This document shows positions 8,528 through 63,618 of a stretch of 64,000 bases of DNA, piece after piece. The notes beneath the pieces are model-generated. The model worked only from the letters and a program-made list of their open reading frames with translations, was not told the origin of the DNA and made no database searches. The stretch is from Flavobacteriaceae bacterium. Its GTDB lineage: Bacteria; Bacteroidota; Bacteroidia; Flavobacteriales; Flavobacteriaceae. Positions within the stretch are counted from its first letter, which is position 1. The number at the start of each line of letters is the position of its first letter. The stretch covers positions 1 to 64,000 of the forward strand of contig JANQSO010000006.1 of the NCBI GenBank assembly GCA_028284005.1. The letters run 5' to 3'. The translations under genes were made by a program, and so were the position numbers.

Positions 8528-8567
8528 AAAAAGCCGGCACCAAAAAGTATCTGGTGCCGGCTTTTTT
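8528..8567 (+). terminator. Strong Rho-independent terminator
   Basis: The stem AGCCGGCACCA / TGGTGCCGGCT has a short loop and a run of six T residues, just downstream of the YehS-like gene. The A run on the other side could let it also stop minus-strand transcription from the micropeptide genes. Confidence 0.85.
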
Positions 8568-8586: not shown

Positions 8587-8724
8587 CTAGAGAGCGCTCC
8601 ATTTAATTCTAATAGGAATAGCTTCTTCTTGCATATTGTGAATGCTTTCTACAAAGTGAAGTAATTTAGGTCGGCTCTCTAAACTTATCTTTTTTCTCTT
8701 CTGAATATTTCGTAGCGTTCTCAT
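8587..8724 (-). CDS. Possible 45-residue basic micro-ORF, last of the micropeptide array
   Basis: ATG at 8724 opens 45 codons. The first four residues (MRTL) and the nucleotides around the start (ATGAGAAC, plus an AATTCATCAA block in the upstream spacer) match the two 28-residue genes just upstream. The rest of the peptide (for example RNIQKRKKIS) is unrelated. It may be a diverged or recombined third copy, or a non-coding remnant. No homologue is recognised. Confidence 0.35.
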   Translation of the reverse strand: MRTLRNIQKRKKISLESRPKLLHFVESIHNMQEEAIPIRIKWSAL

Positions 8725-8762: not shown

Positions 8763-8849
8763 CTATCTATAACGTCTTTTATTGTTCCATGCATAAGCTT
8801 TTGATGTGCTTACTCTTTCTGTTAATTGGTTGCTGTCTAATGTTCTCAT
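8763..8849 (-). CDS. Micropeptide gene, 28 residues, copy 2 of tandem pair
   Basis: The peptide begins MRTLDSNQLTERVS, contains KAYAWNNK and ends KRRYR. It is identical in protein sequence to the neighbouring copy at 8886-8972, while the DNA differs at five third-codon positions (Asp, Ser, two Asn and Tyr codons), all synonymous. That pattern indicates selection on a translated peptide. A diverged relative starts at 63371. No signal peptide or membrane helix is present; the C terminus is strongly basic. Function unknown. Confidence 0.7.
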   Translation of the reverse strand: MRTLDSNQLTERVSTSKAYAWNNKRRYR

Positions 8850-8885
8850 TTTAATATAGTTTTTGTGGTTGATGAATTTTAAAGA

Positions 8886-8972
8886 CTATCTGTAACGTCT
8901 TTTGTTGTTCCATGCATAAGCTTTTGATGTGCTTACTCTTTCTGTTAATTGATTACTATCTAATGTTCTCAT
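8886..8972 (-). CDS. Micropeptide gene, 28 residues, copy 1 of tandem pair
   Basis: This copy encodes the same 28-residue peptide as 8763-8849 and is the promoter-proximal one. The 36-nt spacer between the copies shares a 'TCTTT..AATTCATCAA' block with the spacer preceding the 45-residue ORF, so each gene carries its own leader. A TACTTTGC element at 9044-9051 could drive the array. The peptide is mostly hydrophilic, with aromatic residues near the basic end (Y19, W21, Y27). Confidence 0.7.
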   Translation of the reverse strand: MRTLDSNQLTERVSTSKAYAWNNKRRYR

Positions 8973-9028
8973 AATTTCTAGTTTTTTGTGTTGTTATATC
9001 TAATAGACGACTAAAAAATATTTTTGTT

Positions 9029-9051
9029 ACAGTACTGTGTAATGCAAAGTA
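9029..9051 (-). promoter_or_regulatory. Promoter-like element and palindrome upstream of the micropeptide array
   Basis: On the minus strand TACTTTGC (9044-9051) resembles the Bacteroidota -7 element with one T missing. Immediately downstream, about where transcription would start, is a perfect 10-bp palindrome ACAGTACTGT (9029-9038). It could be an operator. Confidence 0.35.
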
Positions 9052-9104
9052 CTATTTTAACTATTTTTTAACCTTTTAGTGATTGAAAGCGAGGCATCTA
9101 ATCA

Positions 9105-9161: not shown

Positions 9162-9821
9162 CTAGAACCCTGCCGGTAGGGGGGCTGTACCGGTTTCAGA
9201 GTTTGCCATATCTATAGACACAGAATTTAGCCCTTTAGTAATAAATCCTTTTCTGTAAATAATAATATTTAAATACATATCTACAGCTGTGCTCGAAAAA
9301 TTGGAGCCTTGTTTTGTATGAAATTCAGAATTGTTTACAAATGCTCTTAAAAACCAGGTATTGGTTGCGGGGTTTGCATATGCATACATTTGATAGCCTT
9401 CAATATTATCATCTGTAATATTGCTGTGTGTCATCACACTTGTATTATCTGTTACTGTCTCTAAATAATAATATCCTTGTACAGTAACTATATAATCATC
9501 TGTTGAGATCTTAGTGTCATAATCCTGTAAACCGTTTGTAGAGAGATTTCTAAAAACAAATTCTGCATAGTTAATAGGACCATACTTACTCTGCGTGATA
9601 TCATATTCAATGATGTTATCTGTGGGTGACAAAATTAATAACTTTGAACCTCTAATTTCGGTATACTCGCCTGGATTCTCAAGGAATAAACCTCCATCTG
9701 TTTTTACATCACCAACAACGTCCAGAGTGCTGGATGGCGAAGTAGTATTGATCCCTACCTGTGCCATTACTGTACCGGAACATAGTAACAATGTAAGAAT
9801 AGTAATTGTATAATTTCTCAT
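9162..9821 (-). CDS. Secreted 'VGINTT' head-domain protein, third gene of operon
   Basis: The 219-residue protein has a signal peptide followed directly by AQVGINTTSPSSTLDVVGDV. This motif typically begins secreted Bacteroidota proteins related to tail-fibre or adhesin heads. The remainder is beta-rich and ends with a hydrophobic strand and a short Gly/Ser/Thr tail. It is clearly paralogous in layout to the two upstream genes (10-nt and 12-nt gaps). Function unknown; surface structure or adhesion is a guess. Confidence 0.75.
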   Translation of the reverse strand: MRNYTITILTLLLCSGTVMAQVGINTTSPSSTLDVVGDVKTDGGLFLENPGEYTEIRGSKLLILSPTDNIIEYDITQSKYGPINYAEFVFRNLSTNGLQDYDTKISTDDYIVTVQGYYYLETVTDNTSVMTHSNITDDNIEGYQMYAYANPATNTWFLRAFVNNSEFHTKQGSNFSSTAVDMYLNIIIYRKGFITKGLNSVSIDMANSETGTAPLPAGF

Positions 9822-9830
9822 AATTGTAAA

Positions 9831-10460
9831 TTAATATAAGTTAGGTACAGAAGAAGCTACTCCTGTATTACTGCCTCCAAGATCTGAAGTGATAGGAGTT
9901 AGATTTCTATAATAAGATTTGTCATATATGATCAATGTTACCTTATAGGTTACAGAGTCTTCTGCTTCCAGATCCAAGGTTCTGTTTCTTATCTCTAAAT
10001 GCCAGGTTCCTCCACTGGTGAAGGTGCGAACTACAAAATTTCCAATGGATTTTGTATCGGGGCTGTTTACTTTTTTGATAGCGTCTCCCAGGTACTGGAA
10101 ATTAGCTACACCAACCACATACTTACTGTCGTCATACTGCAGGTCCAGATCTGTTAGATTATCAAGTGATATGTTCGTAAAAGTATAGTTCACAACATTT
10201 ACGGGGGCTACACTTAATGCATTGACATCCAATACTGCAATTTCTCCTACCGGATCTGAGCTGGTAGACCGTGTGATCAATTTAAAATCTTCATCGGTTC
10301 CGGATACAACTCCCAGGGAACCGGTTGAAAAAGAATCTTGTACCAACATATCACCTGCAACATGTAAATCTGTTTCAGGAGTAGTAGTTCCAATACCTAC
10401 CTGAGCTTGAACCAGGTAAGTAGATAGTAATAATACTAAAAGTGATATATAATTTTTCAT
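9831..10460 (-). CDS. Secreted 'VGIGTT' head-domain protein, second gene of operon
   Basis: The 209-residue product has a signal peptide, then AQVGIGTTTPETDLHVAGDM. The C-terminal half (GTWHLEIRNRTLDL ... VTLIIYDKSYYRNL) is similar in pattern to both neighbours: a 'GTWH' strand, then a 'IIYxK' strand, then a Ser/Thr/Gly tail. No catalytic motif is visible. Confidence 0.75.
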   Translation of the reverse strand: MKNYISLLVLLLSTYLVQAQVGIGTTTPETDLHVAGDMLVQDSFSTGSLGVVSGTDEDFKLITRSTSSDPVGEIAVLDVNALSVAPVNVVNYTFTNISLDNLTDLDLQYDDSKYVVGVANFQYLGDAIKKVNSPDTKSIGNFVVRTFTSGGTWHLEIRNRTLDLEAEDSVTYKVTLIIYDKSYYRNLTPITSDLGGSNTGVASSVPNLY

Positions 10461-10472
10461 AATAAGCAGGTA

Positions 10473-11105
10473 TTAATTTATTAGGGGGCTTGCGGCACTT
10501 CCTGTTGTCGAATTGGACATAGGAATTTCTATAGTGCCAAATTGTTTTGATAGATCTTTTGAAAAAATGAGTGTCTTTACGGTCCAGGTTCCTATTGCCG
10601 ATTCATCTAAGTTCGCTACCATAGGATAGTCTGCAATGATATGCCAGGTACCTCCTTTTATAAAGGTGGCAGTATAAGGCAAACTGGAGTTGTCAATAGC
10701 ATTACTTGATCCACTTATTTCCAATTCCTTATCATAAAAAGCAGAGAAAGTAATAAGTACAAATTCTGAAGCATCAATCCCGGTGTCAAAGTCTCTCACC
10801 CAGTCCAGATCTGCATTTGTAATAATATACTCTTGTATATATCCAAGGGCAGCACCTGTTGGATTACTTACATCCAGGGCCTTAACGGTATTATCTGTAT
10901 CCTGAACAAGGAAAGTGGAAGTGTCTCCATCCTCCATATTATTAAGAGTAACAATATCTATATTTCCCGAAATAGCTACATCACCGGCAACTTCTAATGT
11001 TTTTCTTGCATTAGTAGTTCCAATTCCAACTTGAGAAAATGAAGTATAACTATTACATATAATAAATGCGAATAGTAAAATGCTTTGTAGGTTGTAAGTT
11101 TTCAT
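10473..11105 (-). CDS. Secreted 'VGIGTT' head-domain protein, first gene of operon
   Basis: The 210-residue product has a signal peptide and then SQVGIGTTNARKTLEVAGDV. It shares the GTWH and 'TLIFSKDLSK' strands with the two downstream paralogues. As promoter-proximal gene it sets transcription of all three. The 508-bp region upstream is the largest intergenic space in the window. Confidence 0.75.
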   Translation of the reverse strand: MKTYNLQSILLFAFIICNSYTSFSQVGIGTTNARKTLEVAGDVAISGNIDIVTLNNMEDGDTSTFLVQDTDNTVKALDVSNPTGAALGYIQEYIITNADLDWVRDFDTGIDASEFVLITFSAFYDKELEISGSSNAIDNSSLPYTATFIKGGTWHIIADYPMVANLDESAIGTWTVKTLIFSKDLSKQFGTIEIPMSNSTTGSAASPLIN

Positions 11106-63324: not shown

Positions 63325-63340
63325 TTGGCACACGCATTGA
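63325..63340 (+). promoter_or_regulatory. Sigma-54-like promoter driving the micropeptide/RND operon
   Basis: TTGGCACACGCATTGA matches the -24 GG box exactly and the -12 box with GA for GC, at correct spacing. Predicted start is near 63352, 19 nt before the micropeptide ATG. A dedicated NtrC-type activator is encoded divergently. Confidence 0.65.
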
Positions 63341-63370: not shown

Positions 63371-63466
63371 ATGAGAACTTTAGACAACAATCAATTAACG
63401 GCAGTATCAAAACTTACAAAAACCTATTCCTGGAACTGTAAGAGACGTTTCAGAATAACTGCTTAA
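63371..63466 (+). CDS. Micropeptide gene (31 residues), relative of the 8.8 kb pair
   Basis: It reads MRTLDNNQLTAVSK at the start, TYSWNCKRRFR near the end and three extra residues (ITA). Without gaps, 17 of 28 positions match the tandem peptide at 8763-8972, including MRTLD, NQLT, the K..Y.WN.KRR core and the penultimate arginine. It is the first ORF after the sigma-54-like promoter, upstream of the RND adaptor gene. Function unknown; a signalling or regulatory peptide is one possibility. Confidence 0.65.
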   Translation: MRTLDNNQLTAVSKLTKTYSWNCKRRFRITA

Positions 63467-63498: not shown

Positions 63499-63618
63499 AT
63501 GAAAATAGCAGTAATTAATCAAACGGGGATGAAAAGAGAGCATAGTAAGCTATCCCTTTTTATCAGTATGAAAAGAATTCACTTAGCAGAGTTTAACAAA
63601 GGGTATAACACTATTTAA
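63499..63618 (+). CDS. Possible 39-residue leader ORF
   Basis: ATG at 63499 opens a 39-codon basic peptide (MKIAVINQTGMKREHSK ... FNKGYNTI) between the micropeptide and the efflux gene. No homologue is recognised and there is no independent sign of coding beyond the intact frame. Confidence 0.3.
   Translation: MKIAVINQTGMKREHSKLSLFISMKRIHLAEFNKGYNTI

Follow-up and report, generated by a model that had tools for sequence, protein, structure and literature searches.

The window, meaning the whole 64,000-nucleotide stretch of DNA that was analyzed, comes from the Altibacter-type genome of a marine Flavobacteriaceae bacterium and carries two adjacent minus-strand ORFs, 8763-8849 and 8886-8972, that share the 28-residue product MRTLDSNQLTERVSTSKAYAWNNKRRYR (micropeptide A). 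An earlier sequence-only reading had claimed that the two ORFs encode the same 28-residue peptide and differ at five synonymous third bases. This was confirmed exactly, with 5 synonymous and 0 nonsynonymous differences confined to the third positions of codons 5, 6, 7, 23, and 27, and the simulated probability of five out of five random substitutions being synonymous was ~0.0005 for this pair. Searching the source genome with the A peptide identified exactly three copies (8763, 8886, and 63371), and the claimed match of 17 of 28 residues for the relative at 63371 also held (61%; E 5.9e-6 in its own genome). The peptide family was thus correctly recognized but only in part, as the reading missed a third ORF at 8587-8724 belonging to a conserved second peptide family (micropeptide B), a promoter at ~9004-9073, and a terminator hairpin at ~8530-8567, and so overlooked an operon with its own conserved promoter as well as sister peptide families. 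We conclude that 8763-8849 and 8886-8972 are real, translated micropeptide genes forming the first two cistrons of a small A, A, B operon; translation is a strong inference from the sequence, without peptide data. The features of this operon and of the 63371 copy are as follows.

9055-9075 (borders approximate), minus strand: paired TTAA elements upstream (GTTAAAAAATAGTTAAAA), from the sequence and the promoter consensus
9033-9051, minus strand: palindromic operator TACTTTGCATTACACAGTA, a predicted PadR site; top-scoring position in the window with a matrix derived from the promoters of PadR operons
9026-9031, minus strand: ECF-type -35 element TGTAAC, near-invariant among 173 promoters
9004-9009, minus strand: ECF-type -10 element CGTCTA, 16 bases from the -35 element, a spacing found in 149 of 173 promoters
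8886-8972, minus strand: micropeptide A copy 1, 28 aa, first gene of the operon; from its translation and from purifying selection across the family
8763-8849, minus strand: micropeptide A copy 2, identical 28 aa; from its translation and comparison with copy 1
8587-8724, minus strand: micropeptide B, 45 aa, MRTLRNIQKRKKISLESRPKLLHFVESIHNMQEEAIPIRIKWSAL, third gene of the operon; most other A arrays have their B ORF at this position and with this size, and pN/pS is 0.10 in nearest B pairs
8530-8567 (approximate), minus strand: intrinsic-terminator-like hairpin of 15 pairs followed by a T run, end of the operon; from sequence and folding
63326-63340, plus strand: sigma-54-like promoter TGGCACACGCATTGA, one mismatch to TGGCAC-N5-TTGC, ahead of the 63371 copy and with an adjacent NtrC-type regulator that has a sigma-54 interaction domain
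63371-63466, plus strand: third copy of micropeptide A, 31 aa, MRTLDNNQLTAVSKLTKTYSWNCKRRFRITA, first ORF upstream of an HlyD/MacB-type efflux operon; from the own-genome search
63499-63618, plus strand: 39-aa ORF of uncertain status between the 63371 peptide and the HlyD gene; from reading of ORFs

The terminator hairpin is common to the micropeptide operon and a convergent DUF1456 gene. Just upstream of the operon, positions 9162-11105 encode three secreted proteins of ~210 aa, paralogs in tandem whose start is of the QVGIGTT type.

The 63371 copy lacks the conserved array promoter and is instead preceded by the sigma-54-like TGGCAC-N5-TTGA. Between 63326 and 63730, this promoter, the A copy, and the 39-aa ORF head an operon of HlyD, ATPase, and MacB/FtsX genes, which is adjoined by the NtrC-type regulator and a kinase. 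In two Winogradskyella loci (L096 and L126, 6001-6084 in each), the gene pair that directly follows an A copy encodes a histidine kinase and a response regulator; in L096, TGGCACACGTACTGAGC is found upstream of the copy. The efflux operon and the Winogradskyella contexts suggest that the peptide has been used with envelope-related operons more than once.

Spread and selection of the peptide families

Relatives of A were found in 129 of 299 Flavobacteriaceae genomes by a single-sequence search at E<=1, a loose limit, with many hits at 1e-5 or better, and a scan of the genome collection gave 270 stretches encoding A. The closest named relatives are Altibacter genomes. In an order-wide sample of 246 genomes only five had an A match, all of them Flavobacteriaceae. 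Overall, relatives occur in 100 or more genomes of the family as arrays of 1-6 copies with a median period of 135 nt. Among 80 named loci, the clusters contained one (21 clusters), two (38), three (13), four (7), five (1), or six copies (1); the six-copy array, from Aquimarina pacifica (L121, 5762-6435), includes three copies with identical peptide. A recurring untranslated CATCAATCAATCAA-like motif was seen ahead of start codons in the spacers between copies (e.g., L023, L031, and L015).

The sequence-only reading had proposed a translated, selected family that starts with MRTLD-NQLT and has K.Y.WN.KRR as its core, to be checked by looking for homologues in related genomes and by a dN/dS-type test. 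The start and core are supported by alignment columns M1, R2, T3, L4, N7, K17, W21, N22, K24, R25, and R26, all invariant or nearly so, and the many homologues described above support the existence of the family. Strong purifying selection was also observed. For A, pN/pS was 0.196 in independent nearest first-copy pairs and 0.113 in close tandem pairs, compared with values averaging 0.82 and no lower than 0.62 in a neutral substitution simulation on the same pairs; this range of 0.11-0.20 favors a translated peptide, with translation itself inferred from sequence alone. A small basic ORF of 43-45 codons, B, usually lies 3' of the last A copy and is likewise conserved (pN/pS 0.10 in nearest pairs).

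As a set, the micropeptides measure 20-50 residues, are positively charged, and lack annotation; both A and B carry a mean net charge of ~+6 (range +4 to +9). No hydrophobic segment was found in the peptide sequences, so the hallmark of type I toxins, a hydrophobic membrane-spanning peptide, is not met, and the double-glycine cleavage motif that marks GG-leader bacteriocins and Bacteroidetes GG-type precursors is missing, GG being absent from all 147 distinct A peptides. Neither a profile nor a structure in Pfam, NCBIfam, PHROGs, or the PDB matched the peptides, and the peptide strings had no match in the literature searched. PDB hits were dismissed as covering only the LNNNQLT stretch of leucine-rich repeats, a phage origin was rejected for lack of any match in phage or viral records, and AlphaFold models of A and B were set aside as low-pTM helices only. 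No constant neighbor gene was identified; helicase, ExbD, HSP20, and DUF1456 genes recur in some clades, not across all.

The conserved promoter and its products

The arrays lie behind a near-invariant promoter in which the palindrome TACTWTGNNNNNCATAGTA overlaps an ECF-type TGTAAC-N16-CGTCTA. Across 173 aligned upstream regions from fetched loci, the order is paired TTAA elements, palindrome TACTTTGTTATACATAGTA, CTGTAAC, 16 bases, and CGTCT. With a -35/-10 spacing of 16 in 149 of these, the layout expected of an ECF promoter (TGTAAC, CGTC, and constant spacing) is met, and published work on Flavobacterium psychrophilum (PMC9723704) gives a CGT box at -10 as the signature of sigma-ECF. The pattern CATAGTACTGTAAC-N15-18-GTC matched in 101 of 299 family genomes, at one or two sites per genome, and its reversed control gave zero matches in the same 299 genomes; a class-wide sample of 247 genomes added a single match, also from Flavobacteriaceae. 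TGTAAC-N15-18-CGTCT alone was not enriched in the window's own genome (11 sites versus 12 in the control), and a genome-wide ECF regulon based on this pattern alone was therefore rejected. The ECF reading consequently rests on conservation at the arrays. Elsewhere in the same genome (L132 5041-5130; C8:219040-219125), two divergent TGTAAC-N17-CGTCT sites occur, one of them upstream of an ECF sigma gene. This arrangement suggests possible autoregulation of that gene, and the candidate ECF genes there have no established link to the arrays.

The products of the promoter were read out at 91 sites. A-type arrays follow 47 of them and a distinct class of 36-38 residues (class C, the 37-residue class; consensus ..TPTESR....FSNF.NSKRVRW.E.RNY..) follows 34, while other micropeptides account for 5 and longer or no ORFs for the remaining 5, so that micropeptides follow 86 of 91 sites. 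Class C shows purifying selection (pN/pS = 0.195), and NCBIfam contains no profile that matches it. Profile-profile comparison of A with B and of A with C by hhalign gave a probability of only ~10%, with the A-C alignment in register over the tail described below; on this basis A and B are not demonstrably homologous. Two further observations concern unusual products. In L151 and L211, a protein of 187-188 aa takes the place of the micropeptide array behind the conserved promoter, an arrangement seen twice in L151, and L219 has five tandem ORFs of 22-24 aa (MRTTIFNNSKRVRWSAHRNYAIKS), the shortest array class seen, which resembles the 37-residue class reduced to its tail.

A C-terminal tail, W-x3-[RK]-x-[YF], ends the first ORF across classes, mostly followed by one or two residues. 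Of 85 first ORFs, 74 have it, whereas residue-shuffled sets averaged 1.5 and never exceeded 6. When the first four ORFs of each array are considered, 83 of the 85 arrays with small ORFs carry it at least once. The motif was noticed in the same data used for its count; nevertheless, a chance origin is very unlikely because the excess over shuffles is so large. The Altibacter B peptide lacks the tail.

The palindrome and its predicted regulator

The source genome contains one clear PadR gene, located in an operon with DUF4870, PspC with a LiaF-type transmembrane region and toastrack, and DUF2807. PadR, PspC, LiaF-type TM, toastrack, DUF2807, and DUF4870 make up the HAAS/PadR membrane-stress set described previously (PMC11237479). 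The array palindrome also precedes the PadR operon in nearly all relatives examined, where shuffles expect 0.004 matches per locus, and there it lies over an TATATTTG primary-sigma promoter. When a matrix was built from the PadR-operon sites, the peptide operator was the top-scoring site of the entire 64 kb window. PadR therefore probably controls the peptides, since the palindrome is common to both promoters.

In the source genome, the palindrome is matched without mismatch at the peptide promoter, at the PadR promoter, and ahead of a CreD-type operon. This last palindrome (TACTTTGAAAAACAAAGTA; L263 1501-1519, C14:42095), near membrane-protein, regulator, and CreD-type genes, resembles the PadR operator. 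Because the CreD-type operon has its own regulator and a similar palindrome, the DNA-binding protein could be other than PadR. Copies at 63371, L096, L103, L105, and L126 have other promoters, so the association with PadR is not exclusive. Control of the arrays by PadR and an ECF sigma factor is likely, an inference made without transcript or binding data; PadR is the likely, not the sole, candidate regulator, and its binding to the palindrome is a prediction. A PadR gene of Zobellia has been described beside different genes (PMC5613140), and its identity with the present PadR is not implied.

Interpretation and rival explanations

Computation established the ORFs and the selection on them, the layout of the arrays, the promoter, and the operator and tail that are shared. 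To account for them, we propose that the PadR of the PadR-PspC-toastrack operon most likely binds the palindrome overlapping the array -35 region and would be released upon envelope stress. An ECF sigma factor would then direct transcription from TGTAAC-N16-CGTCTA, running to the hairpin at 8530-8567, and the tandem copies would raise the dose of small, strongly basic peptides. The cationic-aromatic tail may dock either on the surface of the membrane or on a single envelope-stress protein, thereby modulating the response. In the absence of transcript, peptide, or binding data, we favor this model as a whole, comprising the A, A, B operon, PadR/ECF stress control, and action through the tail, by a modest margin over its rivals. 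The envelope-stress role of the peptides is an inference to which we lean only slightly. Docking on the membrane or a partner is no more than possible, as is our preferred guess of an envelope-stress effector at the membrane, there being no physical test of membrane binding.

Other explanations were considered. A conserved regulatory RNA with incidental ORFs would be consistent with short repeated transcripts behind conserved upstream DNA, with the CATCAATCAA-like motif recurring in spacers, and with the folding of the transcript (z -3.1). However, the terminator hairpin accounts for much of the low fold energy, no Rfam match was found in the window, and exact ORF length and the tail motif are kept while the DNA and the N-terminal sequence vary. 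Codon-structured substitutions in three unrelated peptide classes led us to reject noncoding RNA with chance ORFs, and the RNA reading is all but excluded. Secreted antimicrobial or signaling peptides, that is, a bacteriocin-like array exported by a MacAB-type pump, would fit small, cationic, aromatic products in tandem copies, one of which heads the HlyD-MacB-FtsX operon with its sigma-54 regulator. This is unlikely, as the peptides lack both a signal peptide and a GG leader, the arrays have no conserved exporter or immunity gene beside them, and selection within classes is purifying, not diversifying. An intracellular role, in which stress peptides bind nucleic acids or ribosomes, is also judged unlikely. 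The net charge of ~+6, the conserved KRR cluster, and the lack of a membrane segment make action on RNA or ribosomes equally possible on those grounds, but co-regulation points to the envelope and no likeness to ribosomal or hibernation proteins was found in the PDB or Pfam. Leader peptides or uORFs attenuating downstream genes are suggested by the 63371 copy ahead of efflux genes and by the L096 and L126 copies directly before the kinase-regulator pair; yet most arrays stop after B without a constant downstream gene, and several copies per operon without regulatory codon runs render this reading very unlikely.

A further reading takes the peptides as RiPP precursors, each made up of a leader at the N terminus and a W-containing core at the C terminus, which a radical-SAM enzyme would mature to a darobactin-like compound. 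Darobactin B (WNWTKRF) and darobactin A (WNWSKSF) (PMC13067283) are similar to the tail WN-x-K-R-R-[YF]; both fit W-x3-[RK]-x-[YF] and share the WN start. The conserved N terminus could serve as a leader. However, the source genome (99.95% completeness) has zero SPASM-domain radical-SAM genes, and neither a maturase nor an exporter of the darBCD type lies beside the arrays. The W-x-W-x-K core is not met for want of a second Trp at +2, and the core is conserved instead of varied. In contrast to the BamA-targeting darobactin and dynobactin precursors, the present peptides are conserved in a whole bacterial family. Maturation as a RiPP is therefore very unlikely and the peptides are not daropeptides; a strand-mimic-like action remains possible. 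A bolder version, with the tail as an unmodified, self-made strand mimic of darobactin-like spacing docking on the BamA lateral gate or a PDZ-type stress protease, is very improbable. If true, the peptides would be an endogenous regulator of the BAM pathway that slows or signals outer-membrane protein assembly under stress.

Our preferred reading, an envelope-stress effector, was also compared with known systems. The HAAS/PadR-PspC-toastrack system of the phage-shock-protein network (PMC11237479) has the same operator as the peptide promoter; no micropeptide component was described in that work, and the peptides are unlike its proteins. Small proteins of envelope-stress or two-component regulons, such as MgrB, are usually single membrane-spanning proteins. 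They resemble the present peptides as tiny stress-regulated products probably at the envelope, the stress role of our peptides being inferred, but the latter are hydrophilic, basic, and tandem, with interchangeable sequence classes behind one promoter. The type I toxin-antitoxin peptides Ldr and Ibs are hydrophobic membrane toxins with antisense RNAs; the likeness lies in tandem short ORFs, and the present peptides differ in being hydrophilic with a net charge of ~+6. The regulators are of known kinds. At the product level we rate the finding categorically new because neither the peptide superfamily nor the arrangement of interchangeable tandem micropeptides behind one promoter and with one tail matches anything found; their function is inferred.

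Throughout a bacterial family, a promoter conserved nearly base for base drives products that are overlooked by gene callers and absent from family libraries, and these products vary by genus yet retain one short C-terminal signature. With the tail signature, further peptides of this kind can be sought easily, and the small size of the arrays allows them to be deleted, tagged, or synthesized directly. If the PadR link is right, the peptides would be a first candidate effector for a Bacteroidota membrane-stress system.
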